Shown here one piece after another: positions 27,916 through 48,042 of a DNA stretch of 64,000 bases (within the stretch, counting starts at the first letter, position 1; each line of letters starts with the position of its first letter). Source of the stretch: Solibacillus daqui (GTDB lineage: Bacteria; Bacillota; Bacilli; Bacillales_A; Planococcaceae); the NCBI RefSeq assembly GCF_028747805.1, contig NZ_CP114887.1, forward strand, positions 1,047,501 to 1,111,500, written 5' to 3'. Made by a program: the position numbers and the translations under genes. The notes below the pieces were generated by a model that worked only from the letters and a program-made list of their open reading frames with translations, did not search any database and was not told where the DNA came from.

Positions 27916-28039
27916 TTGTGAATAAGTAATTTAGTTTATTCGATATAGAAAATTAATATAAAATCGAGAACAAAAAGATAAAAAATAATATGCATATTAT
28001 TGGGTTTAAAAAGAATAAGTAATAGTAGAGGTGGGGATT

Positions 28040-28804: not shown

Positions 28805-28871
28805 CATGCAGTTGCAAGTACTATTAGTAAATCAACAGCGAATTTAAGCAATAACAAATAGGAGGCCATTG

Positions 28872-29777: not shown

Positions 29778-29947
29778 AAAAAGAGGATAGAGCTTTGTCG
29801 AATAATGGGTACTGCCCTTTTTATTGAGGGAAGTATGAATAGTCCCGTTTTTAAATGAATATGATAAAGCTTACAAACTCTTTTTTAAGAGATATAACTA
29901 AGTCTTTTTTACCTGATAAAAACATTAGAAATAGAGGGGGAACGACA

Positions 29948-30952
29948 ACGAATATTTTAGTAACTGGCGGTGCGGGATACATTGGTACACATACTTGTAT
30001 AGCGCTAATTGAATCAGGACATACAGTGGTTGTCGCTGACAATCTCAGTAATAGTAAAAGGGAGTCTATAGAAAAAATCAAACGGATTACAAACAAAGAA
30101 TTTCCTTTTTACGAAATTGATATATCCAATAAACAAGCAGTTGAGACTATTTTCGAAAATCATCGGATTGATGGCGTCATTCATTTTGCTGGGTTGAAAG
30201 CTGTCGGTGAATCCGTTGAGAAACCGTCTATGTATTATGAAAATAATCTTGTTAGTACACTTGTATTGGCTAATAGTTGTTTGAAGTTTGGAATAAATCG
30301 ATTTGTATTTAGTTCATCGGCCACAGTGTACGGTGAAAATGAAGTGCCGTTTGTTGAGACGATGGATTTATTACCCACTACCAATCCATATGGTGAAACA
30401 AAGGCAATGTGTGAGCGGATTTTGACAGATATCGCTAAAGCAAATCCGTCATTTTCAGTATCGTTACTACGTTATTTTAATCCAATTGGAGCACATGAAA
30501 GTGGGTTGATTGGTGAAGTACCGAATGGAATACCAAATAATTTAATGCCATTTATAACACAAGTCGCTAAAGGAATGCGAGAATATTTAAGCATCTTTGG
30601 CAACGATTATCCAACGATTGATGGCACGGGTGTTCGTGATTATATTCATGTGATGGATTTAGCAGAAGGGCATGTGGCTGCTATCAATTTTGTATCGGAA
30701 GGGGTCCATATATATAATCTTGGTACAGGTCAAGGAACAAGCGTATTGCAATTAGTAAAGGCATTTGAAGAAGCGAATGGCGTTACGATACGCTATGAAA
30801 TTGAGGATCGTAGGCCAGGAGACATTGCTTCTTGCTATGCGAATGTATTTAAAGCTAGACGAGAGTTGTGTTGGATAGCAAAGCGCGATGTTGTGACGAT
30901 GTGCAAAGACGCATGGCGATTTGAAAAAAATTATCAACATCAAGTAGTTTAA
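29948..30952 (+). CDS. galE: UDP-glucose 4-epimerase (copy 2), ACG at the expected start
   Basis: GalE with NILVTGGAGYIGTHT at the N-terminus, SSSATVYG and the catalytic YGETK near residue 150, and FNPIGAHESGLIGE typical of the longer GalE group. The family starts MNILVTGG, and GAGGGGG at 29934-29940 is ideally placed 7 nt before codon 29948-29950, but that codon is ACG. Translation may start at ACG, at a nearby ATT, or at ATG 29855 with a 31-residue unrelated leader and no SD. The rest of the gene (334 residues) is intact. It differs clearly from copy 1. Confidence 0.85.
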   Translation, partial: TNILVTGGAGYIGTHTCIALIESGHTVVVADNLSNSKRESIEKIKRITNKEFPFYEIDISNKQAVETIFENHRIDGVIHFAGLKAVGESVEKPSMYYENNLVSTLVLANSCLKFGINRFVFSSSATVYGENEVPFVETMDLLPTTNPYGETKAMCERILTDIAKANPSFSVSLLRYFNPIGAHESGLIGEVPNGIPNNLMPFITQVAKGMREYLSIFGNDYPTIDGTGVRDYIHVMDLAEGHVAAINFVSEGVHIYNLGTGQGTSVLQLVKAFEEANGVTIRYEIEDRRPGDIASCYANVFKARRELCWIAKRDVVTMCKDAWRFEKNYQHQVV

Positions 30953-33050: not shown

Positions 33051-34184
33051 ATGGAGGATAAAATTTTTCTTTCATCTCCACATATGAGTGATGAAGGGTA
33101 TGAGATGCAATATATTAAGGAAGCTTTTGATACGAATTGGATTTCTCCACTCGGTGAAAATGTAAATCAGTTTGAAAAAGAGCTGGCAGAAAAAGTAGGA
33201 AGCAAATCTGCAGTAGCTTTATCGTCAGGAACGGCGGCAATTCACTTGGCATTAAAAGCTGCAGGAGTAATGGATGGAGATATCGTTTTTTGTTCAACAC
33301 TTACATTCGCAGCTACAGCCAATCCAATTATTTATCAAAATGCGATTCCAGTTTTCATTGATAGTGACTATGAAACTTGGAATATGTGCCCGAAATCTTT
33401 GGAAGAGGCATTTCTGAAATATCCAAATGTAAAGGCTGTTATTGTGGTCCATCTTTATGGCTTATCTGCAAATATGGAAAAAATCGTTCATCTCTGTCAA
33501 GAATATAATGTTGCATTGATCGAAGATGCTGCTGAATCACTTGGAAGCTACTATAGAGGTCAGCCTAGTGGAACGCATGGTGACTATGGTATTTATTCTT
33601 TTAACGGCAACAAAATCATTACGACCTCTGGCGGAGGGATGCTTGTTTCAAATAATGAAATGAAAATGGATAAGGTGAAATTTTGGGCAACGCAATCAAG
33701 AGACCCTGCAAGGCATTATCAACATAGCGAATTAGGATTCAACTATCGAATGAGCAATATTGTTGCTGGAATTGGGAGAGGGCAATTGAAAGTGTTAGAT
33801 CAAAGAGTAGAAAAAAAGAAATATATTTTTGAATATTATAGAAACGAATTAAGTTCTCTAAAGGATATTGAGTTTATGCCAATCAATGACTGGAATGAGC
33901 CTAATTACTGGTTAAGCGCTATAACAATGAATGGAAAGATAAGACCGCTAAATGTGATAGAGGCGTTAGAAAAAGAGAATATTGAATCGAGACCTATTTG
34001 GAAGCCAATGCATCTGCAACCGTTCTTTGAAAAATATGATTTTATTGGTACTAACGTGTCGGAAGAATTGTTTGAGAATGGCGTTTGTTTACCTTCTGAT
34101 ACAAAGATGACGGAAAAGGATTTGGAAAAAGTTGTGGACATCATTAAAACAGTTATGTTGGTAGGTACTCATGCAAGCATGTAA
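33051..34184 (+). CDS. epsN: DegT/DnrJ/EryC1/StrS aminotransferase (PglE/EpsN type)
   Basis: PLP-dependent sugar aminotransferase, 377 residues, expected to add an amino group at C4 of the 4-keto sugar made by the preceding enzyme. The PLP lysine is in FNGNKIITTSGGG near residue 185; EDAAESLGSYY near residue 160 and the N-terminal SGTAAIHLAL near residue 60 bind cofactor. It ends 14 bp inside the next gene, so the two are translationally coupled. Confidence 0.93.
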   Translation: MEDKIFLSSPHMSDEGYEMQYIKEAFDTNWISPLGENVNQFEKELAEKVGSKSAVALSSGTAAIHLALKAAGVMDGDIVFCSTLTFAATANPIIYQNAIPVFIDSDYETWNMCPKSLEEAFLKYPNVKAVIVVHLYGLSANMEKIVHLCQEYNVALIEDAAESLGSYYRGQPSGTHGDYGIYSFNGNKIITTSGGGMLVSNNEMKMDKVKFWATQSRDPARHYQHSELGFNYRMSNIVAGIGRGQLKVLDQRVEKKKYIFEYYRNELSSLKDIEFMPINDWNEPNYWLSAITMNGKIRPLNVIEALEKENIESRPIWKPMHLQPFFEKYDFIGTNVSEELFENGVCLPSDTKMTEKDLEKVVDIIKTVMLVGTHASM

Positions 34185-34824
34185 CCTTTCAATTTATAGC
34201 AGATTTGTAAAAAGGCCAATGGATTTCATATTAGCATTATTAGCAATTATAATACTTAGTCCAATTTTTTTTATTGTTACTATATTAGTGCGTATTAACC
34301 TTGGAAGATCTGTGATATTTAAACAGAAAAGGCCTGGCAAAGATGAACAAATTTTTACTTTGTATAAGTTTAGAACAATGACAGATGAAAGAGATGAACA
34401 GGGAGAGTTATTACCAAATAGTTTGAGGTTAACAAAATTTGGTAGGTTTCTTCGTTCAACATCACTTGATGAGCTTCCTGAACTTTTCAATATTTTAAAG
34501 GGGGATATGTCAATTATTGGACCAAGGCCTTTGGTTATCGAATATTTACCCCATTATACGGAGCAAGAAAGAATTAGGCATTCCGTGAGGCCAGGATTAT
34601 CAGGATTAGCTCAGATTAATGGTAGAAATACTGTTAACTGGGAAATGCGTTTTGCTTATGATATTAAATACGTTGATAAAATTACTTTTATCGGAGATTT
34701 AAAGATAATTATAAAAACAATTATCCAAGTTATTAAGAGAGCTGATATTGGGGAGAGTGGTGTGGATACTCCAATAGACTTTGATCAGTATAGACAAGGG
34801 AAACTCGAAGTAAGTGATTCTTAA
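34171..34824 (+). CDS. epsL: Initiating sugar transferase (PglC/EpsL type)
   Basis: Small polyprenyl-phosphate phosphoglycosyl transferase, 217 residues. One hydrophobic re-entrant helix (residues about 15-38), then QKRPGKDEQIFTLYKFRTM, LRSTSLDELPELFNILKGDM with the catalytic Asp-Glu pair, and IGPRPLVIEYLPHY. It loads the first sugar phosphate onto undecaprenyl phosphate. With the two genes before it, it forms a PglF-PglE-PglC-like set, but no PglD/EpsM-type acetyltransferase is present. The start overlaps the aminotransferase end by 14 bp. Confidence 0.93.
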   Translation: MQACNLSIYSRFVKRPMDFILALLAIIILSPIFFIVTILVRINLGRSVIFKQKRPGKDEQIFTLYKFRTMTDERDEQGELLPNSLRLTKFGRFLRSTSLDELPELFNILKGDMSIIGPRPLVIEYLPHYTEQERIRHSVRPGLSGLAQINGRNTVNWEMRFAYDIKYVDKITFIGDLKIIIKTIIQVIKRADIGESGVDTPIDFDQYRQGKLEVSDS

Positions 34825-34880
34825 ATTGTTTGAGTAAGTATAGCTTAATAAGAAATGTGTTGAAAATGGGGGATAAAGAG

Positions 34881-35939
34881 ATGTTAACAATGATTACATT
34901 TGATGAAACAGAAAAATGGAATACGATTGTTGAAAAATTTAAAGATTTTGATGTTTATTATCTATCTACCTATTTAGAGGCATTTAAAATTCATGGCGAT
35001 GGGGAACCGATACTCTTTTATTACGAGGATGAAAATATTACGGCGATCAATGTAGTGATGAAACGAGATATAGCAGCAGATGTAAGGTTTCACAACAAAG
35101 TAAATCCCCACACCTTTTATGACATCGCTACGCCATATGGTTATGGTGGCTTTTTAATAGAAGGAACGATAACAGAAGCGAATTTGCAAAAATTGAACGA
35201 TGAATACAATGAACTATGTGCGAAAGAGGGCATTGTGAGCGAAATTGTTCGATTTCACCCAGTTCTAAATAATTGCGAATATGTAAGCAGCATGTATGAA
35301 ATCTCTAATCTTGGTAAAACCATTACTTTAACGTTGGCTTCACAAGAAGAAATTTGGAATAACCTAAATACGAATAAAAAGAGATGGATAAAGAAGGCTT
35401 TAAAATCAGGCGTCCAAATATACTGGGGAAGGAGTCCAGAATTATTTACTGAATTTAGGAGCTTGTATCATCAGACAATGGAAAAGAATAATGCTAAAAA
35501 TTACTACAATTTTAATGATGATTTTTTTCAAAGTGTGCTACAGGATATGCCCTATAATTCATTAATTTTTTATGCGCAATTTGAAAAAAGAACAATTGCA
35601 ATGGTTATAACAACATTTGGAAATGGACAAATCCATCACCATTTGTCTGCATCGGATATTAACTTTCAACATCTTGGCCCAACCAATCTATTAATGTATG
35701 AAATCGCATGTTGGGGAAATGCGAATGGATTTAAAACCTTTCATTTAGGCGGAGGGGTTGGTAGTAAAGCAGATAGCCTTTATGAATTTAAACAAGGCTT
35801 TAATAAAAATTCGGATACGATTTTTTCAATAGGAAAGAAAATATTTGATGTAGAAAAATACAACCATTTGCTGAGAATTAGAAAAAAAGATGAAAATTTC
35901 GACGAATCGGAAGCTTTCTTCCCGAGCTATAGAATTTAG
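34881..35939 (+). CDS. FemAB/BioF2-like GNAT-fold acyl- or aminoacyl-transferase
   Basis: 352 residues with the double-GNAT pattern of FemAB/BioF2-type (lipid II glycyltransferase-like) proteins: FDVYYLSTYLEAFKIHGDG near residue 18, NKKRWIKKALKSGVQIYWG near residue 155 and FHLGGGVGSKADSLYEFKQG near residue 292. Family members move amino acids or acyl groups onto amines. It directly follows the PglF/E/C set and could acylate the 4-amino group in place of a PglD-type acetyltransferase, or decorate a later intermediate; both are inference. ATG 34881 is favoured (GGGGGA upstream); in-frame starts at 34830, 34866 and 34890 are possible. Confidence 0.75.
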   Translation: MLTMITFDETEKWNTIVEKFKDFDVYYLSTYLEAFKIHGDGEPILFYYEDENITAINVVMKRDIAADVRFHNKVNPHTFYDIATPYGYGGFLIEGTITEANLQKLNDEYNELCAKEGIVSEIVRFHPVLNNCEYVSSMYEISNLGKTITLTLASQEEIWNNLNTNKKRWIKKALKSGVQIYWGRSPELFTEFRSLYHQTMEKNNAKNYYNFNDDFFQSVLQDMPYNSLIFYAQFEKRTIAMVITTFGNGQIHHHLSASDINFQHLGPTNLLMYEIACWGNANGFKTFHLGGGVGSKADSLYEFKQGFNKNSDTIFSIGKKIFDVEKYNHLLRIRKKDENFDESEAFFPSYRI

Positions 35940-35983: not shown

Positions 35984-37186
35984 ATGAAAATATTATTTCT
36001 TTCAATTAGTTACATCAAGACAATAGAGGAAAAAGGAATCTACACCGATCTGATTAGACAGTTTCGAGATGGCGGTCACCAGGTGTATGTAGTTAATCCG
36101 ATTGAAAAACGCTTGAACAAACCTACTCAGTATGTGATAGAAAATGGTGTGCATTTTCTTAGGGTGAGAATAGGTAATATTACGCAAAATAATCTGATTG
36201 AAAAAGGGTTATCCACTCTAATAATTGAACGCCAATTTTTGAACGCTATTAAGCACCATTATAGGGAAGTAGTTTTTGATTTGATCATCAATTCAACTCC
36301 GCCGATCACATTTGAAAAAGTAATAAGGTTCGTTAAAAAAAGGGATAATGCGAAATCTTACTTATTACTTAAAGATATTTTTCCGCAAAATGCTGTTGAT
36401 TTAAACATGTTTCGTAAAAATGGTTTGATTTATAAGTATTTTAGGATGAAGGAAAAGAGATTATACCAAATTTCCGATTATATAGGCTGTATGTCACAGG
36501 CGAATGTCGATTATATAAAGAAACATAATCCAAGAATTTCTGCTAATAAAATTGAAATATGCCCAAATAGTATCGATATTTTATCGATAAATAATAACGA
36601 TGACAGCGTAAAACAGATTAGGGAAAAGTATAACATTCCTTCTGATAAAACAATTTTCATCTATGGAGGCAACCTAGGTAAACCCCAAGGAATTGATTTT
36701 CTAATCGAATGCTTGAAAGGGAATAATTATATACATCAGGCATTTTTTGTTATTGCAGGGGCTGGGACAGAATTTAACAAACTCAAACATTACTTTGATG
36801 CCGAGAAACCTACAAATGCGCGATTGCTTGAAGAATTACCAAAAGATGAATATGAGCTGTTAGCAAATTCATGTGATGTCGGTTTAATTTTTCTTGACCA
36901 TCGATTTACAATCCCGAATTTCCCATCACGATTACTTTCTTACATGCAATCTTCCATGCCAGTGTTAGCTGCTACGGACGTTCATACGGATATTGGGCAA
37001 GTGATTGAACAAGGAAAATTTGGTCTGTGGTGTGAGAGTAATAATGTTGAGCAATTCAACAAAAAGATAAATCAATTTGTTGATTCAACATTAAGAGAAT
37101 CAATGGGGAAAAATGCGAAAACCTATTTAGAACAAAATTATTCTAGCAAACACTCATATGAAATAATAATGAACCATTTTAAATAA
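35984..37186 (+). CDS. Glycosyltransferase family 4
   Basis: 400 residues, GT-B fold. The N-terminal Rossmann-like half has GGHQVYVVNPIEKR near residue 30; the C-terminal nucleotide-sugar domain shows ICPNSIDILS near residue 195, FIYGGNLGKPQGIDFLIE near residue 225 and FPSRLLSYMQSSMPVLAAT near residue 308. It should add a sugar to the lipid-linked intermediate in the cytoplasm. Donor and linkage cannot be read. ATG 35984 has AAGGTGGGG upstream. Confidence 0.87.
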   Translation: MKILFLSISYIKTIEEKGIYTDLIRQFRDGGHQVYVVNPIEKRLNKPTQYVIENGVHFLRVRIGNITQNNLIEKGLSTLIIERQFLNAIKHHYREVVFDLIINSTPPITFEKVIRFVKKRDNAKSYLLLKDIFPQNAVDLNMFRKNGLIYKYFRMKEKRLYQISDYIGCMSQANVDYIKKHNPRISANKIEICPNSIDILSINNNDDSVKQIREKYNIPSDKTIFIYGGNLGKPQGIDFLIECLKGNNYIHQAFFVIAGAGTEFNKLKHYFDAEKPTNARLLEELPKDEYELLANSCDVGLIFLDHRFTIPNFPSRLLSYMQSSMPVLAATDVHTDIGQVIEQGKFGLWCESNNVEQFNKKINQFVDSTLRESMGKNAKTYLEQNYSSKHSYEIIMNHFK

Positions 37187-37204: not shown

Positions 37205-38242
37205 ATGTTTAAAGATAATATTTTATTGATTACAGGTGGTACGGGTTCGTTCGGAAATGCCGTGATGGAGAGATTTTTAGACACAGATATCAAAGAAATT
37301 CGTATTTTTTCTCGCGATGAAAAGAAACAAGATGATATGCGGAAAAAATATAACAACGATAAACTAAAATTCTATCTTGGAGATGTGCGCAATATAGATA
37401 GTTTAAAAAATGCTATGTACGGTGTTAATTATATATTTCATGCAGCGGCCTTAAAGCAAGTACCATCATGTGAGTTTTTCCCACTTGAAGCAGTAAAAAC
37501 AAATATTTTAGGAACTGAAAATGTATTAAATGCTGCAATTGAAAGTGGAGTAAAAAAAGTAATTTGTCTTTCAACAGATAAGGCGGCTTATCCAATCAAT
37601 GCAATGGGGATTTCAAAGGCAATGATGGAAAAGGTTTTTGTCGCAAAATCAAAAACAGTTTCTCCAGAAAATACACTCATTTGTGGAACAAGATACGGCA
37701 ATGTAATGGCCTCACGTGGTTCAGTCATACCGTTATTTATTGAACAAATAAAAAAAGGATTTCCTTTGACAATAACAGATCCCCATATGACAAGGTTTCT
37801 TATGAGTTTAGAAGAGGCAGTAGAACTCGTATTATTTGCTTTTGAACATGCAGAAGCAGGTGATATTATGGTCCAAAAATCTCCAGCTAGTACAATAGGT
37901 GATCTTGCTCAGGCCTTGAAGGAGCTATTTAACGTTGACAACGAAATAAAAATTATTGGGACACGACATGGGGAAAAACGCTATGAAACGCTACTTACTA
38001 AAGAAGAATATGCAGTCGCAGTGGACTTAGCTGGATTCTTTAAGGTCCCTGCTGATCAAAGAAATCTCAACTACAATAAATATTTTGTAGAAGGTCATCC
38101 GGAACTTACAAATATCAAAGAGTACAATTCAGACAATACTAGGCAATTAAATATAGAAGAAATTAAAGAAACATTAATGCAATTAGATTACATTCAGGCA
38201 GAACTAAAGGAATGGAATAAAAATATTCATATCATGAACTAA
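37205..38242 (+). CDS. capE: CapE: UDP-GlcNAc 4,6-dehydratase/5-epimerase
   Basis: First enzyme of UDP-L-FucNAc synthesis. 345 residues, NAD-binding TGGTGSFGNAV near residue 10 and catalytic stretch LSTDKAAYPINAMGISKAMM near residue 122, with methionine instead of tyrosine before the lysine as described for CapE-type enzymes. The C-terminal RHGEKRYETLLTKEEY is characteristic of this subgroup. The next two genes are CapF and CapG, so the whole pathway is present in order. Confidence 0.93.
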   Translation: MFKDNILLITGGTGSFGNAVMERFLDTDIKEIRIFSRDEKKQDDMRKKYNNDKLKFYLGDVRNIDSLKNAMYGVNYIFHAAALKQVPSCEFFPLEAVKTNILGTENVLNAAIESGVKKVICLSTDKAAYPINAMGISKAMMEKVFVAKSKTVSPENTLICGTRYGNVMASRGSVIPLFIEQIKKGFPLTITDPHMTRFLMSLEEAVELVLFAFEHAEAGDIMVQKSPASTIGDLAQALKELFNVDNEIKIIGTRHGEKRYETLLTKEEYAVAVDLAGFFKVPADQRNLNYNKYFVEGHPELTNIKEYNSDNTRQLNIEEIKETLMQLDYIQAELKEWNKNIHIMN

Positions 38243-38257
38243 GGTGGGATTGGATAG

Positions 38258-39367
38258 ATGAACATTCTTGTAACAGGTGCAAAAGGATTTATAGGTAAAA
38301 ATCTAATTGCAGAACTCAAAAACTGCGGAATAAATCAAATATTTGAGTATTCAAGAGATAGCGATCCATCGCTGCTCGAAAAATATGCTAAAGAATGTGA
38401 CTTTGTCTTTCATTTAGCTGGTGTAAATAGACCTCAAAATGAAAATGATTTTTTTGAAGGAAATACTAACTTTACTTCTCAGCTGTTAGAGCTACTAAAA
38501 AAATTCGAAAATAATACACCTATTGTCGTAACTTCTTCTATTCAAGCTGAATTGGATAATCCTTATGGGAGAAGCAAAAAGGCAATGGAACAGTTGTTGT
38601 TTCAATATCAACAGCAAACAGGTGCCCCTGTTTATATGTATCGATTACCAAATGTATTTGGAAAATGGAGTAAACCGAATTACAACAGCGTAGTTGCTAC
38701 TTTTTGTTATAACATCGCAAGAAATTTAGAAATTCAAGTAAACAACCCTGATACAGAGTTAAACCTTTGTTATATCGATGATGTTTTAGAAGAAATGTTA
38801 CGAGCGTTAGTCGGAACACCAACAGAACAAGGAGAATTCTGTGTGATACCTATTACACACCAAATTGAACTTGGAACATTAGCAAATCTAGTAAAAAGTT
38901 TCAAGGATAGTAGAACGAATTTAAACATTGTAAATATGGATGATCCTCTCACGAAAAAGCTGTATAGTACGTATTTAAGTTTTTTACCTGTAGATCAATT
39001 TTCATATGACTTAAAAATGAATCTAGACAATCGTGGTTCATTTACTGAATTTATTCGAACTCCGAATCAAGGTCAAGTTTCGGTTAATGTATCAAAGCCT
39101 GGAATTACAAAAGGAAATCATTGGCACCATACTAAAAATGAAAAGTTTTTAGTTGTTAGTGGTGAAGGGTTAATACGGTTCAGAAAGTTAGGAGCCGAGG
39201 ACATTATTGAATATAGGGTGAGTGGAGAAAAGCTACAGGTCGTTGATATACCTACTGGATATACACATTCCATTGTTAACGTAGGAGAAACAGATCTAAT
39301 AACAGTGATGTGGGCAAATGAATGTTTCGACCCAGTAAAGCCGGATACGTACTATTTGGAGGTTTAA
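38258..39367 (+). CDS. capF: CapF: bifunctional UDP-FucNAc pathway reductase/epimerase
   Basis: Two-domain enzyme of 369 residues. The N-terminal SDR domain starts MNILVTGAKGFIGKNL and has the catalytic YGRSK near residue 105; the C-terminal cupin begins around residue 245 and carries the zinc-site pattern KGNHWHHTKNEKFLVVSGEG near residue 286. The cupin epimerises the CapE product and the SDR domain reduces it. The gene is 15 nt after capE. Confidence 0.94.
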   Translation: MNILVTGAKGFIGKNLIAELKNCGINQIFEYSRDSDPSLLEKYAKECDFVFHLAGVNRPQNENDFFEGNTNFTSQLLELLKKFENNTPIVVTSSIQAELDNPYGRSKKAMEQLLFQYQQQTGAPVYMYRLPNVFGKWSKPNYNSVVATFCYNIARNLEIQVNNPDTELNLCYIDDVLEEMLRALVGTPTEQGEFCVIPITHQIELGTLANLVKSFKDSRTNLNIVNMDDPLTKKLYSTYLSFLPVDQFSYDLKMNLDNRGSFTEFIRTPNQGQVSVNVSKPGITKGNHWHHTKNEKFLVVSGEGLIRFRKLGAEDIIEYRVSGEKLQVVDIPTGYTHSIVNVGETDLITVMWANECFDPVKPDTYYLEV

Positions 39368-39370
39368 ATC

Positions 39371-40504
39371 TTGAAAAAACTAAAAGTGATGACGGTAGTA
39401 GGGACTAGACCAGAAATTATTCGATTGTCTGCAGTAATCAATAAGTTAGAACAGTCTAATGTAGTGGAACATACGCTTGTTCATACAGGGCAAAATTATG
39501 ATTACGAATTGAATGAAGTTTTCTTTCAAGATTTCGGTTTGAAAAAGCCAGATTTTTTCTTAAATGCAGCTACTGGGTCAGCAACTGAAACAATCGGCAA
39601 TATTTTGAGTAAAATCGATCCTGTATTAGAAGAAGTACAGCCAGAGGCCTTTTTAGTATTAGGGGACACAAATAGTTGTCTATGTGCAATCGCTGCGAAA
39701 AGAAAGCAAATCCCAATTTTCCATATGGAAGCTGGTAATAGATGTTTTGACCAACGCGTACCGGAAGAGACGAATCGAAAAATTGTCGATCATATTTCAG
39801 ATGTTAACTTAACGTACAGTGATATCGCTCGAGAATATCTCCTAAGGGAAGGTTTTCCAGCCGATCGAATTATTAAGACAGGTAGTCCAATGTTTGAAGT
39901 ACTTCATTCGAAAAAAGCGGATATTGAAAAATCGGATGTACTCCAAAGATTAGAACTTGAGGGTGGGAAGTATTTTGTTGTTTCGGCACACCGTGAAGAA
40001 AATATTAATTCCACCCGAAATTTTCTTCATTTAGTTGAAAGTTTAAATGCTGTTGCAGAAAAGTACCAACTACCGGTCATTGTGAGTACACATCCTCGTA
40101 CACAGAAAATGATTGAAGCGAAAGAAATCGAATTTAATCCGCTAGTAAAAATAATGAAGCCTTTAGGTTTTAACGATTATGTAAAACTGCAACTAAAATC
40201 AAAAGCCGTTCTGAGTGATAGTGGAACAATTAGTGAAGAGTCCTCCATTCTTGGATTCAACGCACTTAATATTCGCCAAGCGCATGAACGACCAGAGGCG
40301 ATGGAAGAAGCTTCGGTGATGATGGTTGGGCTTGAAAAGGAAAGAATATTACAAGGGTTAGAAATATTAGAAACACAGGAAACAGATACATTAAGACTTG
40401 TGGGAGATTATGGGATGCCGAATGTTTCAGATAAAATGTTAAGAATTATTTTGTCGTATACACATTATGTGAATCGGGTTGTATGGGGGAGTACGTATCC
40501 ATGA
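39371..40504 (+). CDS. capG: CapG: UDP-N-acetyl sugar 2-epimerase (WecB family)
   Basis: Last step to UDP-L-FucNAc. 377 residues with the WecB family pattern: VGTRPEIIRLSAVI near residue 10, HTGQNYDYELNEVFF near residue 40, VLGDTNSCLCAIAAKR near residue 97, MEAGNRCFDQRVPEETNRKI near residue 120 and SDSGTISEESSILG near residue 280. TTG 39371 follows GGAGG that overlaps the capF end. Its TGA overlaps the next ATG (ATGA). Confidence 0.94.
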   Translation: MKKLKVMTVVGTRPEIIRLSAVINKLEQSNVVEHTLVHTGQNYDYELNEVFFQDFGLKKPDFFLNAATGSATETIGNILSKIDPVLEEVQPEAFLVLGDTNSCLCAIAAKRKQIPIFHMEAGNRCFDQRVPEETNRKIVDHISDVNLTYSDIAREYLLREGFPADRIIKTGSPMFEVLHSKKADIEKSDVLQRLELEGGKYFVVSAHREENINSTRNFLHLVESLNAVAEKYQLPVIVSTHPRTQKMIEAKEIEFNPLVKIMKPLGFNDYVKLQLKSKAVLSDSGTISEESSILGFNALNIRQAHERPEAMEEASVMMVGLEKERILQGLEILETQETDTLRLVGDYGMPNVSDKMLRIILSYTHYVNRVVWGSTYP

Positions 40505-41547
40505 AAATTGCATTAATTTGCCCATCAAATATGCTATTTATGCCATACGTAAAAAGTTACGAGCAAATATTAGATGAACAACATATAGACTATGACATTA
40601 TTAATTGGGATAGGTTTCAGATGGAGGAAGAAAAAGAAAATACGTATAAGGATAACAAAATCGGACATCATAGAAATTTTTTTGAATATTTAAAATTTCG
40701 GAGATTTGTGATAGAAAGATTAAGAATGGACCGGTACAACAAAATTGTCGTGTTTGGAATTCAATTAGCGTATTTACTTCATGGAATACTAAAGAAAAAA
40801 TTTAAAGGTGCATATGTGCTGGATATTCGAGATTTTCATAAACTTCATCAATTTTTTAATATAAAGAAGACAATTGAGGGTTCCGCCTTTACCGTAATAT
40901 CTTCGCCAGGCTTTGAAGAATGGCTGCCACATAGCAAGAAATATATCACCAATCATAATACGCAAATTAAAAGCATAAATGAAATAGAGACGGTTGAAAA
41001 TATGTCCTACAAAGAACAAATTTCGGTTGCAAATATTGGTGCACTAAGGGACTTTTCGATTAATAAGGACTTCATTAGTGTCTTAAAAAATAACCGAAAG
41101 TTTGTGTTGAATTACTATGGGGAAGGCAATAGTAATCAACATATAAACGACTATTTGGTTGGCAATCAGATTCGAAATGTTAGATTAACAGGAAGGTATT
41201 ATCCTGAGGAGGAAGAACAATTTTATCATCAAAACGATTTTATCAATGTTCTTCGATACAATGATGGCATCAATAATAAAACGGCATTACCGAATCGATT
41301 ATATAATGCCTTAATTTATGGGAAACCCTTAATCGCATTCAAAGGAACCTATTTAGCAGAAATTATCTCCTTGAATCATATTGGGGTTGTTTTACATTCC
41401 TTTGAATTCGCAGAGAATGACCTTTTGCAATATGCATCGAAATTTAATTCAGCTAACTATTACAAAGGTAGAAAAAATTTTTTGGAGAAAGTTTTACAAG
41501 ATAATATTCTCTTTGAAAAGCAGTTCAAAACATTCATCCGATATTGA
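40501..41547 (+). CDS. Glycosyltransferase (GT4-like)
   Basis: 348 residues, GT-B-like. It begins MKIALICPSNMLFMPYVKSY; the C-terminal half has SVANIGALRDFSINKDF near residue 180 and ALPNRLYNALIYGKPLIAF near residue 262, which resembles the sugar-nucleotide site of GT4 enzymes. I chose ATG 40501, which overlaps the capG stop and has GGGGGAG upstream; ATG 40483 would lie in that SD. The position straight after capG suggests a FucNAc transferase, but that is inference. Confidence 0.75.
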   Translation: MKIALICPSNMLFMPYVKSYEQILDEQHIDYDIINWDRFQMEEEKENTYKDNKIGHHRNFFEYLKFRRFVIERLRMDRYNKIVVFGIQLAYLLHGILKKKFKGAYVLDIRDFHKLHQFFNIKKTIEGSAFTVISSPGFEEWLPHSKKYITNHNTQIKSINEIETVENMSYKEQISVANIGALRDFSINKDFISVLKNNRKFVLNYYGEGNSNQHINDYLVGNQIRNVRLTGRYYPEEEEQFYHQNDFINVLRYNDGINNKTALPNRLYNALIYGKPLIAFKGTYLAEIISLNHIGVVLHSFEFAENDLLQYASKFNSANYYKGRKNFLEKVLQDNILFEKQFKTFIRY

Positions 41548-41569: not shown

Positions 41570-42655
41570 ATGGTTTTTTATTGTTTTTTTCTTTTCGTAA
41601 TCATGGGTGTCATGGTCTTAGATAAAATGAGCACCTTTATCCATTGTAGCAATGTACAACTTAGTGATGATAGTAGAATTCTTCCAAATGAATATGCTAA
41701 AAAGAATGTCTTTTTAATGGTTGCCTTTCTTTTGTTATTTTGCTTTTCTGCCTTTCGTTTCGATGTTGGTTGGGATTATTTAGCGTATTATGACACGGTT
41801 AAATATAATATCCAAACGAATATTGTCGGTGGTGAAGAGTTCGCAACCATTCTATTGATTGAGCTTTCTAGGTCGATAGGTATCTATAATTTGTTTTTCG
41901 TAGTCAATTCATTTATTTGCCTTTTTTTAATTTACAAAACGATTAATAAATATAGTGTAGATCCATGGCTTAGTTTACTGTTTTTTTTATGTTTTCCACT
42001 TTACTTTTTAAATTCCTTAAGCGTCATCCGTTTTTTTACTGCATTAGCGATTACCTTTTATGGATTTAAATACATTGAACAAAAGCGACCGATTCCATAC
42101 ATTGTTTTAGTAGTGATAGCTATTTTATTTCATAAAGCATCATTAATAGCATTTGTCTTTTATTTAGCAAGATATATAAAGTTAGGCACCTTTAAGCTGG
42201 TAATCCTTTTAGCCTCACTTCCTGTTATTGCGAATCTGTTAAATGGCCTAGTTTTAAATTATTTACCTAAATATGCTGTTTATACGAAAGAAACAGCAAG
42301 TCAGGAAGGTACTAAGGCAATTGTTTTTTTCTTAATCCTAGCTTTTATTGCACTATTATTAAGAAAGAAAATTACAGATGATGATGAGCCATCAAGGATT
42401 TACTTAAATATTTTTTTCATGGGAATCGCGATTTATTTAATGTTCTATGCCCAGGGAACAATGGGACATCGATTATCGCTGTTTGGTACGATTTATGGAT
42501 TATTAGTTGTACCAAAGATGATTTCTTTATTTAACAATGCAATCGTTCATTTTTATTTGAAGTTACTATTTTATACGTTATTAGTCGCCATGTTTCTATA
42601 TATCATAAATAGCGGAGCAGCTACGTACATCCCATATCGAACCATTTTTGAGTAA
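41570..42655 (+). CDS. epsG: EpsG-family polysaccharide polymerase (Wzy-like)
   Basis: Integral membrane protein, 361 residues with about ten hydrophobic segments. The EpsG family hallmark FSAFRFDVGWDYLAYYD is near residue 58 and SVIRFFTALAITFYGFKY lies near residue 150. It should join lipid-linked repeat units on the outer face of the membrane. The flippase gene follows, completing a Wzx/Wzy system with the Wzz-like CpsC at the island's end. Confidence 0.87.
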   Translation: MVFYCFFLFVIMGVMVLDKMSTFIHCSNVQLSDDSRILPNEYAKKNVFLMVAFLLLFCFSAFRFDVGWDYLAYYDTVKYNIQTNIVGGEEFATILLIELSRSIGIYNLFFVVNSFICLFLIYKTINKYSVDPWLSLLFFLCFPLYFLNSLSVIRFFTALAITFYGFKYIEQKRPIPYIVLVVIAILFHKASLIAFVFYLARYIKLGTFKLVILLASLPVIANLLNGLVLNYLPKYAVYTKETASQEGTKAIVFFLILAFIALLLRKKITDDDEPSRIYLNIFFMGIAIYLMFYAQGTMGHRLSLFGTIYGLLVVPKMISLFNNAIVHFYLKLLFYTLLVAMFLYIINSGAATYIPYRTIFE

Positions 42656-42731
42656 TCGTTTTAGCTGTAGTAGTGAATTGAAGTAGATAAGAAGTGATCA
42701 TTCGTAGGTTTTGTAAAAAGGGGTGTATGAA

Positions 42732-44231
42732 TTGGGCAATGAAGTAACAAAGGCAAAAATCGTTTCCTCATTATTATGGAGTTTATTGCAACGAAGCGGG
42801 GTTCAAGGAATTCAACTACTGATAACTCTTATATTAGCTCGATTGCTTTTGCCAGAAGATTTTGGATTAATTGTGATTGTGACGATCTTTAATACATTTG
42901 CTATCGTGATAGTACAAAGTGGATTTACGACGGCGCTCATTCAAAAGAAAAAAGTCGATCATGTCGATTTGTCCTCCGTTTTTTATGTGAATATAATATC
43001 TAGCAGTATCATTTATATGCTCCTTTTTTATCTTGCTCCTACTATTGCCTTCTTTTTTGAGCAACAGCAATTAATTTTAATTTTAAGAGTCTTATCTTTA
43101 TCACTATTTTTGAGTGCATTTCATTCAATCCAATATGTGATTGTTTCTCGTAATATGCAATTTAAAGATTTGTTTCTTGCAAGCTCTATCGCCCACGCAC
43201 TTTCGGGCATGATCGCAGTTGGAATGGCATACGCTGACTTTGGCGTTTGGGCACTTGTATTTCAACAATTAGCTAGTCATCTAATAACGCCTTTTTTATT
43301 AAGCTTTAAAGTAGAGTGGAGACCACAATTATTTTTTTCAATGCGAAACGTAATGCAGCTTTTTTCATTCGGTTGGAAAATACTGGTATCATCGTTATTG
43401 AATGCAATTTATAGCAATATGCACAGTGTGATTATCGGCAAACTGTTTAGCCCAGCAATGATCGGTTATTACAATAAAGCAGATCAGTTTCCGAATATTA
43501 TTGTAAGTAATGTGAACGGCTCCATACAAGCTGTCATGTTACCGGCCTTGTCTTCTTATCAAGATAATCGTCAAAGGGTCAAAGAAATGGTACGGCGAAC
43601 GATTGTTACAAGTTCATACGTTGTATTTCCAATGATGATAGGTTTGGCAATGATTGCTGAACCATTAGTAAGGCTATTATTGACGGATAAATGGTTACCA
43701 ACAGTTCCGTTTTTACAAATTTTTTGTATGGTTTATGCGTTATATCCAATTCAAACCGCCAATTTACAGGCAATCAATGCTCTTGGGCGTAGTGATGTGT
43801 TTTTGAAACTCGAAGTACTAAAAACATTGCTTGGACTAGGAATTCTGATTATTTCAATACAATTTGGTCTCTATGTCATGGTCTTTGGTGTGTTTATTAG
43901 TAGCGTCCTATTTACTATTATTGATGCTTATCCAAATAAGCAGTTATTAAATTACGGAATGCTGGAGCAACTTCGCGATGTATTCCCGTCCTTGTTAATC
44001 GCGTTAGCAATGGGAGGCTTATTATTTTTAACTCATGGACTTGAATTTTCTATGCTCACAACCGTTTTTATTCAAATTATTTTAGGGTCCATCATCTATG
44101 TAGTTCTATCCCGGATATTTAAACTCGAATGTTATGAGTACTTACGATCGACGCTACTTAGTATTTTAGGGTCTAGTACAAAGAAATATAACTTAACTTT
44201 TTATAACAAAGAGGACAACAAAGAAATATAA
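42732..44231 (+). CDS. Polysaccharide flippase (Wzx, PST/TuaB-like)
   Basis: MOP-superfamily exporter of 499 residues with 12-14 hydrophobic segments. The N-terminus has SLLWSLLQRSGVQGIQLLIT followed by LARLLLPEDFGLIVIVTIFN, the classic PST/TuaB pattern; AMIGYYNKADQFPNIIVSNV near residue 245 is also typical. It flips the lipid-linked repeat unit. TTG 42732 is favoured, 7 nt after AAAAGGGGTG; an in-frame GTG at 42723 lies in the SD. It is unrelated in detail to the flippase remnant at 24031. Confidence 0.9.
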   Translation: MGNEVTKAKIVSSLLWSLLQRSGVQGIQLLITLILARLLLPEDFGLIVIVTIFNTFAIVIVQSGFTTALIQKKKVDHVDLSSVFYVNIISSSIIYMLLFYLAPTIAFFFEQQQLILILRVLSLSLFLSAFHSIQYVIVSRNMQFKDLFLASSIAHALSGMIAVGMAYADFGVWALVFQQLASHLITPFLLSFKVEWRPQLFFSMRNVMQLFSFGWKILVSSLLNAIYSNMHSVIIGKLFSPAMIGYYNKADQFPNIIVSNVNGSIQAVMLPALSSYQDNRQRVKEMVRRTIVTSSYVVFPMMIGLAMIAEPLVRLLLTDKWLPTVPFLQIFCMVYALYPIQTANLQAINALGRSDVFLKLEVLKTLLGLGILIISIQFGLYVMVFGVFISSVLFTIIDAYPNKQLLNYGMLEQLRDVFPSLLIALAMGGLLFLTHGLEFSMLTTVFIQIILGSIIYVVLSRIFKLECYEYLRSTLLSILGSSTKKYNLTFYNKEDNKEI

Positions 44232-44319: not shown

Positions 44320-45582
44320 TTGAAGAAACTTTTAATGTTAGGTGGGGCTTTATCCCAAGTTGCAGCGATTAAAAAAGCTCGGGAAATGGGCTGCTATGTG
44401 ATAGTCTGTGACGGTAATGGGAATGCTCCTGGTAAACAATTCGCCCAAGAATTTTATGAAGTTTGTACGACCGACAAAGAATTAATTTTAAGCTTAGCGA
44501 AATCTTTGCAAATTGATGGAATTGTATGTTATGCAGCTGAGTCAGGGGCAGCAACAGTCGCATATGTTGCAGAAAAATTAGGTTTACCAACACATCCATA
44601 TAATTCTGTAGAGATACTAACGAATAAAGAATTATTTCGAAATTTCCAAAGAAAAAATAATTTCAATGTTCCAAGGGCAGAAGGATTTCATACGTATGAA
44701 GAGGCTAAAGCCCAAATTCATAAATTTAATATGCCGGTCATGATAAAACCCGTTGATTCTTCGGGCAGTAAAGGCGTTTCGAAAATAGATTCAATTGATC
44801 AACTTGAACAAAATGCATTCGATGCCTTACGTTTTTCAAAAGTAAAACGATTTATTATAGAAGAATATATTGAAAATTATGGTCCACATATTGGCGGAGA
44901 TGGATTTTCGGTAGATGGTAAACTTGTGTTTCGGTGTTTTTCGAATGAATATTTTTCAACAGATTGTATCAATCCCTTTGTTCCAGTTATAACAACTTGG
45001 CCATACACAATGCCAGAACAAATCCAAAAAAATGTTCATAACGAGATTCAGAAAGTTTTGGATTTATTAAATATGAAAACAGGTTCTTATAATTTCGATA
45101 TTCGAATCGATGAAAATAAGAACGTCTATTTGATTGAGGTCACGCCGAGAAATGGTGGTGATTGGAATCCAGAGGCAATCCAATATGCCACTAAAATCGA
45201 TTTAATGGAAAATACAATTAAAGCAGCTTTAGGCAAAGATTGTAGTGATGTAAAGATGGTTAAACCTACAGGATATTGGGCCACATATGTACTAAACAGT
45301 GAAAAGAGTGGCATATTTGAAGGATTAGAAATACAAGAGGACTTCTTAGAAAAAAATGTAGTGGAGTATGAATTATTAGTGAATCCAGATGACCCGATTT
45401 CAGACCTTTCTGGATCTCACGAAAAAATTGGATTAATGATACTGAAATATCAATCTGAAAAAGAGATGATGGAAAAAATGAATAATATAAAAAAATTAGT
45501 GAAGGTAAAAGTGAATGATCTTTTGATTTCGGGAAGCATTCCATTTTTATTACTACAAGAAAGAGTAGCTAATCTAATATAA
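44320..45582 (+). CDS. ATP-grasp ligase, tandem copy 1
   Basis: 420 residues. N-terminal Rossmann-like pre-ATP-grasp domain (KKLLMLGGALSQVAAIKKA), glycine-rich loop MIKPVDSSGSKGVSK near residue 143, hinge region FIIEEYIENYG near residue 185 and metal-binding IEVTPRNGGDW near residue 272 with Glu and Arg intact. The CarB/PurK-like family joins a carboxylate to an amine using ATP. It has a close paralogue next door. Start TTG 44320 is 9 nt after AGGAGG; a better-placed ATG at 44316 opens a short out-of-frame ORF of 18 codons, so initiation may be divided. Confidence 0.83.
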   Translation: MKKLLMLGGALSQVAAIKKAREMGCYVIVCDGNGNAPGKQFAQEFYEVCTTDKELILSLAKSLQIDGIVCYAAESGAATVAYVAEKLGLPTHPYNSVEILTNKELFRNFQRKNNFNVPRAEGFHTYEEAKAQIHKFNMPVMIKPVDSSGSKGVSKIDSIDQLEQNAFDALRFSKVKRFIIEEYIENYGPHIGGDGFSVDGKLVFRCFSNEYFSTDCINPFVPVITTWPYTMPEQIQKNVHNEIQKVLDLLNMKTGSYNFDIRIDENKNVYLIEVTPRNGGDWNPEAIQYATKIDLMENTIKAALGKDCSDVKMVKPTGYWATYVLNSEKSGIFEGLEIQEDFLEKNVVEYELLVNPDDPISDLSGSHEKIGLMILKYQSEKEMMEKMNNIKKLVKVKVNDLLISGSIPFLLLQERVANLI

Positions 45583-45639
45583 AAGATGAGCTCGCATAAT
45601 TTGATTCAAAAATAAACCCAATTGAGAATGAGGTAAATT

Positions 45640-46854
45640 ATGAAAAAACTATTAATCCTTAGTGGAGACCCATACCATGTACCCTTTATTAAAAAGGCAA
45701 TAGAGATGGGCTATTATACGATTACATGTGATTTTTTTGAACATAACCCAGGTCATAAATTGGCGCATGAGTATCACAATGTTAGCTATATGGATAAAGA
45801 AGCAGTTCTTTCTTTAGCTAGAGATTTAAAAATTGATGGAATCACTTGTTTTGCTGCCGATGAAGCCATGACTACAGTTTCTTACGTTGCTGAAAAGTTG
45901 GGATTACCGTCCTATTCATATGAGTCCATTAAAATAATTAATAATAAGGACTTGTTTAGAGACTTTTTAATGAAAAATAACTTTAATGTCCCTAAAGCAA
46001 AAGGATATACCTCATTTGAAGAAGCAAAATCTGAAATACTCCATTACAAAATGCCAGTGATGATCAAACCAGTGGATTCATCTGGAAGTAGAGGAATTTC
46101 AAAAATAGATACCATTGAATATCTTGAAGAAAAGATAGAATATGCTTTAAGTTTCTCAAAAGCTAAACGCTTTATCATAGAAGAGTATATTGATCGAAAA
46201 GGATATCAAGTCGGAGGCGATGGCTTCTCGGTTAATGGTGAACTCGTATTTCGATGCTTCACAAATAATCATCTTAATCCTACAAATATCAATCCGTTTG
46301 CACCAATAGGAGGAAGCTGGCCAAGTGTATTGCCGGAACATATTCAAAATAAAATTCATAGGGAAATTCAAAGATTAATCCATTTACTTGAAATGAAAAC
46401 AGGTCCTTATGATTTTGATATACAAGTAGATAAACATGATCGTGTTTTTTTTATAGAAATGGGTGCAAGAGTTGGAGGGAATTTGATTCCTCATATAACG
46501 AAAAAGGCAACAGGTGTCGATTTAATTGAATATACGATAAAGGCTGCCTTAGGGGAAGATTGTAGTGATTTGAAAATGGTAGAACCTACAGGCTATTGGT
46601 CATGTTATGTGTTAAATAGTCAGAAAAGCGGGATATTTGAAGGGCTCGAAATGGACAAAGAGTTTGAGGAAAATAATATTGTAGAATATGAACTCTCCAT
46701 TAAACCGAAGGATAGTTTATCTGCTTTTACAGGATCAGATAAAAAAATAGGAACAATGGTGCTGAAATATTCATCACTAGAAGAAATGCTAAGAAAAATG
46801 GATAGTATCACAGATTTTATCAATGTGAACGTAGAAGATTCTTTCGTATATTAG
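45640..46854 (+). CDS. ATP-grasp ligase, tandem copy 2
   Basis: 404 residues, collinear with the preceding protein along its whole length, so a tandem duplication. Shared blocks are FNVPKAKGY near residue 118, MIKPVDSSGSRGISK near residue 143, GGDGFSVNGELVFRCF near residue 192 and IKAALGEDCSD near residue 300. The metal site IEMGARVGGNL keeps Glu and Arg. Differences cluster at the N-terminus (SGDPYHVPFI against GGALSQVAAI) and around residues 205-225, likely substrate sites. ATG 45640 has GAGG upstream. The unknown substrates may be an amino acid and an amino sugar or sugar acid (inference). Confidence 0.83.
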   Translation: MKKLLILSGDPYHVPFIKKAIEMGYYTITCDFFEHNPGHKLAHEYHNVSYMDKEAVLSLARDLKIDGITCFAADEAMTTVSYVAEKLGLPSYSYESIKIINNKDLFRDFLMKNNFNVPKAKGYTSFEEAKSEILHYKMPVMIKPVDSSGSRGISKIDTIEYLEEKIEYALSFSKAKRFIIEEYIDRKGYQVGGDGFSVNGELVFRCFTNNHLNPTNINPFAPIGGSWPSVLPEHIQNKIHREIQRLIHLLEMKTGPYDFDIQVDKHDRVFFIEMGARVGGNLIPHITKKATGVDLIEYTIKAALGEDCSDLKMVEPTGYWSCYVLNSQKSGIFEGLEMDKEFEENNIVEYELSIKPKDSLSAFTGSDKKIGTMVLKYSSLEEMLRKMDSITDFINVNVEDSFVY

Positions 46855-47091: not shown

Positions 47092-48042
47092 TTGTTAAAA
47101 ATATCAGTCTTAATGAGTGTATATAATAAAGAAGCAAGATTAAAAGAAAGTATTTCTAGTGTATTATCTCAAAGCTTTCAGGATTTTGAATTAATAATTA
47201 TAAATGATGGCTCGACAGATAAAAGTGGGGAAATATGTGAATATTTCAGAAAAAAAGATAGTAGGGTTAGAGTATATCATCAGGAAAATAAAGGTGTGTC
47301 CTATACACGTAATTTATCAATAAAAATGGCGGAAACCGAATTTATTAGTTTTCTAGATGCAGATGATACTTACGAGAAAACATTTTTAGAAAATATGCTA
47401 AGGAAAATTGGAAATAAGGATGTTTGTTATTGTGGTCATTTTTATATAGGTAATAAGAAAAGAAAAGCTAAAATTAATTTTAAGTCAGGGTTTATATTAA
47501 TGAATTATTTAAAAAATACCACAACGCCTAACACTAATTCTTGGTTGATTAGAAAAAGTTTTTTGTTAAAACATGATTTATTGTTTAGAGAAGATTTGAA
47601 CTTTGGAGAAGATATGTTGTTTTTCGCTAACTTACTTAAGCAATCTAAAGATGTCCAATGCGTTAAGAAGAGGCTTACTAATTATCATTTAGAAATCGAG
47701 GGTAGTCTTAGTGAAAATAATATTGATAAAATTAACTTAGATTTAAAATGGATGAATATTCTTATCAATGATATTTTACATTCAAAATTGTTAGTAGAAG
47801 AAAAAATGAAATTGACTAAAATTATGATAAACTACAGAATTCCGGGTGGCATAATTTACAGGGTATATCAAAATTGTGAGTTTTTAATTGAAAATAATCT
47901 CTTGGAAGAGATTATATTAAACAATACCCCACATATTGTAAATCTGAAATCAATTAATGGAATTAGGAGTTTAAAACTTATTTATTTTAAAAAAAAGATC
48001 TTGAAAATTTATAAAAATAGAATTCTCCACTCCACAAATTAA
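47092..48042 (+). CDS. Glycosyltransferase family 2
   Basis: 316 residues, GT-A fold. KISVLMSVYNKEARLKESI at the start, IINDGSTDKS near residue 37 and the DxD-type FLDADDTYEKTFLENML near residue 85 are the family marks; WLIRKSFLLKHDLLFREDL and FGEDMLFFANLL complete the acceptor region. TTG 47092 with GGAAGTGA upstream. The gene is noticeably richer in A and T than its neighbours and is set off by a terminator on its left, which suggests a later addition to the island. Confidence 0.88.
   Translation: MLKISVLMSVYNKEARLKESISSVLSQSFQDFELIIINDGSTDKSGEICEYFRKKDSRVRVYHQENKGVSYTRNLSIKMAETEFISFLDADDTYEKTFLENMLRKIGNKDVCYCGHFYIGNKKRKAKINFKSGFILMNYLKNTTTPNTNSWLIRKSFLLKHDLLFREDLNFGEDMLFFANLLKQSKDVQCVKKRLTNYHLEIEGSLSENNIDKINLDLKWMNILINDILHSKLLVEEKMKLTKIMINYRIPGGIIYRVYQNCEFLIENNLLEEIILNNTPHIVNLKSINGIRSLKLIYFKKKILKIYKNRILHSTN

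Follow-up and report, generated by a model that had tools for sequence, protein, structure and literature searches.

Tandem ATP-grasp ligases in an exopolysaccharide island of Solibacillus daqui and their possible role in linking amino acids to a 4-amino sugar

What do two tandem ATP-grasp ligases do inside an exopolysaccharide (EPS) island? The question is raised by a 64,000-nucleotide stretch of Solibacillus daqui (NZ_CP114887.1, positions 1,047,501 to 1,111,500; hereafter the window), part of a single 4.1-Mb contig of this Lysinibacillus-group bacterium, in which two neighboring genes encode the ligases termed A and B (Table 1). It is hypothesized that A and B attach amino acids by amide bonds, possibly one after another, to the amine at C4 of a sugar of the bacillosamine type, a reading to which we give a probability of about 0.57. 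Acylation at N4 of a 4-amino sugar is well supported by the position of the genes in relatives, amino acids as the acyl donor are moderately supported, and the addition of two successive residues is a hypothesis. The superfamily is a common one in an unusual and informative position.

A and B share 56% identity over 403 residues aligned without gaps (475 bits), which bears out a preliminary description of this DNA as holding two paralogues that align from end to end, with their coordinates and strand. The start of A (MKKLL) agrees with its homologues. Profile searches placed both proteins in ATP-grasp_4 (PF13535), with 52.5 bits for A and 42.9 bits for B against a Pfam cut-off of 27. The glycine-rich loop KPVDSSGS, initially located near residue 145, occupies residues 143-150 in each. 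K103, K143, D146, S150, G152, E181 and R277 are invariant in 57/57 aligned rows, residue 273 is Glu in 49/57 (A and B included) and Asp in 8/57, and G280 is Gly in 54/57. Both active sites are retained, as first proposed: K103, K143, E181, D260, E273 and R277 are present in A and B, and we take these Lys, acidic and Arg residues to be the ATP and metal residues. Identity between the two is 53% over the first 100 residues, 43% over residues 205-225 and 47% over residues 231-300, so that the divergence initially placed around residues 205-225 stands, while that of the N-terminal domain does not (53% against 56% overall). No NCBIfam model came near its cut-off among the best 25 of 38 (A) and 40 (B) matches; the BacD equivalog (cut-off 850) gave B only 30.7 bits and did not match A among the best 25 shown, and LAL_C2 (PF18603) was unmatched in both at E ≤ 0.001 in the Pfam scan. 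Orthology to PurD, PurT, CarB or the argininosuccinate lyase N-domain family was rejected, with best NCBIfam scores of 77 and 89 against a cut-off of 625 (again among the best 25 of 38 and 40), and the pair shows no clear orthology to a characterized ligase of central metabolism.

The AlphaFold2 models of A and B were good (mean predicted local distance difference test scores of 92.2 and 93.7, respectively), and the structure prediction called for in the preliminary description returned the L-amino acid ligases BL00235 and BacD, together with 4dim, as best matches. Re-examination of Foldseek's own list for B using VIA-align ranked BL00235 first (3vot; Z 39.0, root-mean-square deviation [rmsd] 2.8, 378 residues), with 4dim at Z 37.9, YwfE/BacD (3wnz) at Z 34.9 and rmsd 2.6, and RizA at Z 33.3. 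For A, the Foldseek order was 4dim, BL00235, BacD and RizA. The models thus support a fold closest to L-amino acid ligases for both proteins. PurK and PurT scored Z 34.2 and 33.9, however, and BacD and RizA are not separable from them by fold; hence the reaction is not settled by fold. The closest solved sequences are 4dim and BL00235. The nearest, 4dim, is titled phosphoribosylglycinamide synthetase in the PDB, and we know of no assay for it. BL00235, BacD/YwfE and RizA have their whole-length fold in common with the A and B models at ~19% identity; A and B differ in showing no LAL_C2 match and, by prediction, in their acceptor, which would be a sugar amine. The E-x-G-A-R-x-G-G motif of BL00235 also occurs in B, whereas A has E-V-T-P-R instead. 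Trp332 of BacD, a key binding-pocket residue (PMC6920838), falls near position 281 of A and B by an approximate correspondence (profile-match offset, 56-304 vs 92-355), where A has D281-W282-N283 and B has N281-L282-I283. A more distant ATP-grasp that bears LAL_C2 adjoins PglC in genome G018 (L034:2748-3938) and was excluded from copy counts.

Relatives of A and B were sought in 261 genomes of the family as matches at E ≤ 1e-40. A maximum-likelihood tree of 57 rows was built from proteins labeled best as ATPgA or ATPgB, with an identity of ≥36%, and from two outgroup rows, eight named loci being dropped as duplicates of G-numbered genomes. In this tree G059_8 and G061_7 join B with support 100/100, and G059_9 and G061_8 join A with 94/86. 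Since each has orthologues in G059 (Lysinibacillus odysseyi) and G061, whose island gene order is identical to that of the window, the duplication took place before the window species diverged from these two genomes. Comparison of the three orthologues of A with the three of B showed 33 positions at which each set has its own fixed residue; they form patches at residues 8-16, 71-76, 189-190, 210-212 and 281-287. Judged from these sequences, A and B are probably not redundant, and the old separate lineages with their patchwise differences favor the earlier suggestion of two related but different ligations. Five first-position paralogues make up a third clade (100/100), which carries D260E and E273D, with G279S or C.

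Relatives occur in 26/261 genomes, with one copy per locus in 14/26, two in 10/26 and three in 2/26, and copies stand side by side in 8/26. A constant pairing of A and B, raised as a question in the preliminary description, is thereby ruled out. The other genome of the window species, G150, has no A or B relative at that threshold, and its EPS locus carries a gene of the c41 family and a GNAT at the place of the ATP-grasps; the cassette therefore varies within the species. Among relatives in named genomes, at least 107 were found, of which 80 were used. The matches listed include proteins with 61% identity in Clostridium sp. N3C, 56% in a Microgenomates bacterium, 55% in Gastranaerophilales, 48% in Roizmanbacteria and Bacteroidales, 45% in a Helicobacter and 44% in Prevotella. 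ATP-grasps 48-56% identical to A are found at L140, L141, L144 and L146 in Gastranaerophilales, Microgenomates and Roizmanbacteria, which suggests transfer of ATP-grasp genes across phyla.

The neighborhoods of the 26 loci were compared with 40 control loci, one from each Wzx-positive genome without a match at the above threshold (41, minus G015); control loci L120 and L133 are cut by contig ends. Open reading frames (ORFs) were the longest non-overlapping frames of ≥110 amino acids (aa), labeled by BLAST to reference proteins at E ≤ 1e-8 (1e-6 in one round), and labels were confirmed by hidden Markov models for representatives only, so that some of the PylC, PglD, GNAT and FemAB labels given at 20-35% identity may be wrong. 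All 26 loci are polysaccharide-type islands, in which a DegT sugar aminotransferase lies no more than 13 kb away in 26/26 and Wzx in 22/26; the survey proposed at the outset thus found the ligases beside EPS genes rather than frequently away from them. DegT was rejected as evidence by itself: controls are as rich in it, so it shows only that these are amino-sugar islands. FemAB is found in 11/26 ATP-grasp loci and 16/40 controls and was rejected as an obligate partner. The preliminary description had coupled the pair to a FemAB-like gene of the same island; that gene is real (Table 1) but lies ~8.4 kb upstream and does not adjoin the pair, and FemAB is no constant companion in relatives.

Gene position is more informative than the presence of DegT, and was compared in two types of island. 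Type-1 islands hold PglF, an aminotransferase and mostly PglC; 52 loci have an aminotransferase ≥69% identical to that of the window. Within five genes downstream, 22/52 have PglD, 22/52 have a GNAT, FemAB, PylC or ATP-grasp gene, eight have neither and none has both (Fisher p 2.2e-8), and six genera contain both states. PglD occupies that position in 1/10 type-1 loci with the window's type of ATP-grasp against 21/42 without it (p 0.03). In G248 and G244 the consecutive order is PglF, aminotransferase, PglC, FemAB, ATP-grasp and pyridoxal phosphate (PLP) decarboxylase. The window belongs to the class without PglD: FemAB takes the place of PglD, and the ATP-grasps follow Wzx. Type-2 islands hold RmlA, RmlB and a DesI-like aminotransferase, the dTDP-4-amino-4,6-dideoxyhexose route, and in 15/26 ATP-grasp loci the ligase or ligases lie between Wzx and the aminotransferase of such a set. 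Among 32 type-2 controls the same slot is empty in 17 and holds a PylC-type ATP-grasp in eight, a GNAT alone or with c41 or WbqC in five, and RmlA or RmlB in two (the count omits eight rows from a second Wzx in loci of genus g13 already counted). G163 contains both island types, with PglD in its type-1 set and an ATP-grasp plus GNAT in its type-2 set. These observations suggest that ATP-grasps, GNATs, FemABs and PglD interchangeably occupy the position expected of an enzyme that N-acylates a 4-amino sugar.

Several further families were seen in these islands. PylC-like ATP-grasps in the N-acylation positions (L131:8088-9149, L121:8151-9179 and L038:11109-12077) match PF21360 and PF02655, and NCBIfam PRK12767, 'carbamoyl phosphate synthase-like'. 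The c41 family (~320 aa; L034:18494-19504), which has no Pfam or NCBIfam match, recurs there beside GNAT or ATP-grasp genes. WbqC (PF08889; L053:5065-5787) recurs between the sugar aminotransferase and RmlA, and a 705-aa protein with no Pfam match (L102:3925-6039) recurs beside RmlB in the single genus g13.

The acyl donor is suggested by genes that may supply amino acids. Two genomes of the window's genus, G156 and G157, each have a diaminobutyrate transaminase of the EctB type (583.6 and 596.1 bits, respectively, against a cut-off of 552.2) directly upstream of three ATP-grasps. Neither genome has a second EctB above the cut-off, and neither yielded an ectoine synthase in a search that was positive in 19/261 family genomes. 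PLP decarboxylases of the diaminopimelate/N-citrylornithine/BtrK type occur in 12/36 loci with any labeled ATP-grasp and 0/30 without (p 2.7e-4). A formyltransferase is present in 5/26 ATP-grasp loci and 0/40 controls (p 0.0074; p 0.058 when pooled with the PylC loci).

In the window, the ligases lie in a Wzx/Wzy-type EPS island (28031-49706), which confirms the setting given in the preliminary description; it holds a phosphoglycosyl transferase, glycosyltransferases (GTs), Wzx, a polymerase and CpsB, CpsC and CpsD. The sugars expected from it are UDP-Gal, UDP-N-acetyl-L-fucosamine (UDP-L-FucNAc) and UDP-2-acetamido-4-amino-2,4,6-trideoxyglucose (UDP-QuiNAc4N). UDP-QuiNAc4N is the expected product of the aminotransferase, and UDP-L-FucNAc that of the FnlA-FnlB-WecB-like genes. 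Only UDP-QuiNAc4N has a free amine. The comparison with the UDP-N,N'-diacetylbacillosamine route is based on the EpsC/N/M pathway (PMC10653937). The dehydratase, aminotransferase and phosphoglycosyl transferase have homologues in both Bacillus subtilis (EpsC, EpsN, EpsL) and Campylobacter (PglF, PglE, PglC), but the island has no separate EpsM/PglD ORF, the only match being 24 bits to PglD_N inside the PglF-like protein; FemAB stands there instead, and the two ATP-grasps further on.

We propose the following route. A and B would be amide-forming ATP-grasp ligases acting like L-amino acid ligases, each converting a carboxylate and ATP to an acyl phosphate and then transferring the acyl group to an amine. 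The acyl group would most likely be accepted by the free 4-amine of UDP-QuiNAc4N, formed by the PglF-like dehydratase and the PglE/EpsN-like aminotransferase; alternatively, the acceptor may be the 4-amine of the lipid-linked sugar after PglC. An amino-acid acyl group would then be placed on the sugar instead of the acetyl group added by PglD/EpsM. A, B and FemAB probably act in sequence, the second ligase joining a residue to the amine of the first, and the resulting short peptidyl amide would be carried on the EPS repeat unit, exported by Wzx and polymerized by EpsG. The acceptor, the identity of the amino acids, the order of reactions and the use of two residues rather than one are what we infer.

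Precedents exist for parts of this route, and the preliminary description went too far in calling it undescribed. In Clostridioides difficile, type B flagellin carries taurinyl-Ala-Gly amide-linked to N-3 of Fuc3N (PMC5207245), and the locus encodes a FemAB-like protein (CDR20291_0244), a PF13535 ATP-grasp (0245), an ornithine cyclodeaminase-like protein (0246) and an FdtB-like DegT protein (0247); the 0245 mutant is without the peptidylamido sugar (PMC5207246). Successive ligation by linked ATP-grasps, O-antigen included, was proposed earlier in general terms (PMC4431377). Like C. difficile 0244-0247, the window combines FemAB (34830), PF13535 (44320 and 45640) and DegT (33051) genes in one locus with glycosyltransferases, 0245 being likened to A and B by family and locus content. 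The C. difficile system concerns a flagellin glycan, the 3-amine of Fuc3N and one ATP-grasp, whereas the window has an EPS island, an expected 4-amine of QuiNAc4N and two ATP-grasps. No flagellin-locus or ornithine cyclodeaminase-like gene was found among 24 ORFs at 24549-54789 by Pfam and/or NCBIfam (the ymdB-like ORF at 26998 was unscanned). In Acinetobacter baumannii, exchange of qhbA and qhbC determines whether QuiNAc4NAc or QuiNAc4NHb is made, the N4-acylating gene setting the N-acyl group (PMC9676051). This resembles the proposed exchange on the same sugar, with hydroxybutanoyl as the acyl group, and the available part of that paper names no ATP-grasp in these loci. A limited literature search found no report, beyond the papers cited, of an ATP-grasp acylating a 4-amino sugar in EPS; a paper on Shewanella sfm (PMC3765264) names ATP-grasp once. 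The present analysis adds the likely acceptor, the 4-amine of a bacillosamine- or viosamine-type sugar, and the interchangeable N-acylation position.

A number of results weigh against amino-acid acylation of this sugar by A and B. The 19 feature tests were made without correction on related loci, and their p-values are optimistic. DegT lies within 11 kb in 21/26 ATP-grasp loci and in 37/40 controls. Most of the exclusion of PglD comes from GNAT, FemAB and PylC genes, since an ATP-grasp of the type found in the window is within five genes in only 4/22 alternative loci (G239, G246, G248 and G244), and both the grouping of GNAT, FemAB, PylC and ATP-grasp and the pooling of PylC for the PLP decarboxylase were chosen after the loci had been seen. 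The PglD locus G226 also has a formyltransferase, and in G163 a single position is shared by a GNAT and an ATP-grasp. EctB occurs in 2/26 loci against 0/40 controls (p 0.15, not significant). For the window's type of ATP-grasp alone, PLP decarboxylase is found in 7/26 against 5/40 (p 0.19), and because the link fails there we hold the hypothesis slightly less firmly. Scans of the ORFs of the window island with Pfam and NCBIfam revealed no EctB, PLP decarboxylase or formyltransferase gene. In the window ten genes separate the pair from the aminotransferase, and it is other loci alone that connect acceptor with ligase. A DegT aminotransferase was labeled in 42 of the 80 named-genome stretches and 14 of the 22 closest; of the eight close loci without one in the stretch covered, three are those of G059, G236 and G060, where it is 12.5-12.7 kb away. 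Finally, one PglD/NeuD-type acetyltransferase above cut-off is found elsewhere in the genome (G000:2114187-2114804; L254:8173-8814). This orphan gene at ~2.114 Mb adjoins YitT and ArsB/ArsA genes and is 28% identical to the G163 PglD; its product could acetylate the sugar in trans. Similarly, FemAB could acylate N4 alone, leaving the ATP-grasps another acceptor.

Positional evidence leaves the acyl group unnamed, and A and B might instead attach a non-amino acid to the sugar amine, such as the hydroxy acids 3-hydroxybutyrate or glycerate, with no peptide formed. The same sugar does bear 3-hydroxybutanoyl in Acinetobacter loci where qhbC replaces qhbA (PMC9676051). The nearest solved relatives of known reaction are amino-acid ligases, however, and the EctB and PLP decarboxylase neighbors point to amino acids in other loci, if not in the window; we consider a hydroxy acid rather unlikely. 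The same fold match to dipeptide ligases would suit a free dipeptide or small molecule, made by A and/or B as BacD does in bacilysin, with the island location incidental. That all 26 family loci combine DegT within 13 kb with other polysaccharide genes, and that in syntenic loci the ligases stand at the place of the acyltransferase, makes such a product highly improbable.

It is very unlikely that only one paralogue is catalytic, the other being a drifting duplicate or partner subunit. The first-position clade with D260E, E273D and G279S or C indicates that some metal sites do change, but D260, E273 and R277 are intact in both A and B, L. odysseyi G059 and G061 both hold a well-supported orthologue of each (B 100/100, A 94/86), and the two groups differ at 33 fixed positions. 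An amide could also run from the amine of an amino acid to the carboxylate of a hexuronic acid, as in Acinetobacter K17 (a reference title in PMC9676051), and a UDP-sugar dehydrogenase does lie inside 6/26 islands (G236, G248, G244, G256, G246 and G018). With no PF03721 match at E ≤ 1e-15 anywhere in the window genome, nor in G160, G156, G157, G234 or G145, a uronic acid acceptor is disfavored, and for the window we regard it as barely credible.

Extending the proposed N4-aminoacylation beyond the window, one might tentatively, and with less confidence, see a swappable N-acylation cassette of Gram-positive EPS islands. In it one to three ATP-grasps, each adding one residue, would assemble a short peptide in the cytoplasm, without a template, on a bacillosamine- or viosamine-type sugar at its 4-amine, in analogy to the Mur ligases but for exopolysaccharide; supply genes (such as EctB for diaminobutyrate) would belong to the cassette, and formyl or FemAB additions would be optional. 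If the N4-aminoacylation itself is right, many EPS of the Lysinibacillus group would bear amino acids or short peptides in amide linkage, perhaps including cationic diaminobutyrate in some strains, and EPS charge, biofilm behavior and phage recognition would be altered. The N-acyl groups of 4-amino sugars might be predicted from gene order, and the structural oddity of C. difficile would be tied to a broader pattern. The hypothesis also gives a testable assignment to ATP-grasps named by no NCBIfam model above its cut-off (best 25 shown), and the ligases could serve as tools for making peptidyl amino sugars.

Table 1. Features of the window island and of related loci; plain coordinates are window positions, and an L number denotes another locus
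Feature	Coordinates	Strand	Evidence or remark
ATP-grasp ligase A	44320..45582	+	420 aa, TTG start, complete ORF
ATP-grasp ligase B	45640..46854	+	404 aa, ATG start, complete ORF
CpsB/CapC-type protein (EPS regulation)	28031..28804	+	PF19567 174.6 bits
LytR-CpsA-Psr protein	28869..29777	+	PF03816 166.6 bits
GalE UDP-glucose 4-epimerase	29855..30952	+	TIGR01179 430.6 bits, above cut-off
PglF/EpsC-like UDP-GlcNAc 4,6-dehydratase, long N-terminal part	31180..33015	+	PF02719 414.2 bits; precedes aminotransferase in related loci
PglE/EpsN/LegC-type sugar aminotransferase	33051..34184	+	PF01041 322.2 bits; TIGR04181 391.6, below cut-off 420
PglC/EpsL-type phosphoglycosyl transferase	34171..34824	+	PF02397 207 bits
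FemAB/GNAT-like acyltransferase	34830..35939	+	PF13480 45.4 bits, PF02388 39 bits; PglD position of 22/52 related loci
GT4 glycosyltransferase	35984..37186	+	PF00534 69 bits
FnlA-, FnlB/WbjC-, WecB-like genes	37205..40504	+	TIGR04130 548.7 (cut-off 730), NF047837 427.1 (500), TIGR00236 243.6 (above 210)
Possible glycosyltransferase	40483..41547	+	weak PF13692 only, E 0.0027, below cut-off
EpsG-family protein (Wzy-like polymerase)	41570..42655	+	PF14897 142 bits
Wzx flippase	42723..44231	+	PF13440 315.8 bits
GT2 glycosyltransferase	47092..48042	+	PF00535 116.3 bits; 25.6% GC
CpsC (Wzz)	48233-48991	+	PF02706 65.1 bits; TIGR01006 180.2, below cut-off 296
CpsD (BY-kinase)	48915-49706	+	TIGR01007 223.5 bits, above cut-off
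EctB-type transaminases	L041:11748-13028, L047:12422-13735		directly before three tandem ATP-grasps
D260E/E273D first-position clade	L034:15832-17046, L036:16212-17423, L041:13313-14557, L047:13788-15005, L134:8769-9968		presumed metal site changed

The island lies upstream of korAB and after a ymdB-like gene, among flanking genes that we take to be recA, rny and ymdB, and its GC content is 26-36% against 38-39% in the flanks. The CpsC and CpsD ORFs as called overlap by 77 bases, the TTG start of CpsD probably being placed too far upstream. A third ATP-grasp of the window, TupA-like (PF14305, 137 bits; 24549-25490), precedes a GalE-like gene upstream of the main island. A role in joining amino acids to a wall polymer by amide bonds is likewise attributed to TupA. 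The TupA/teichuronopeptide ATP-grasp is of a different family from A and B, its counterpart in the window being the gene at 24549-25490, and teichuronopeptides are mentioned in the earlier general proposal on ATP-grasps (PMC4431377). TupA-like genes also occur inside the islands of some relatives.

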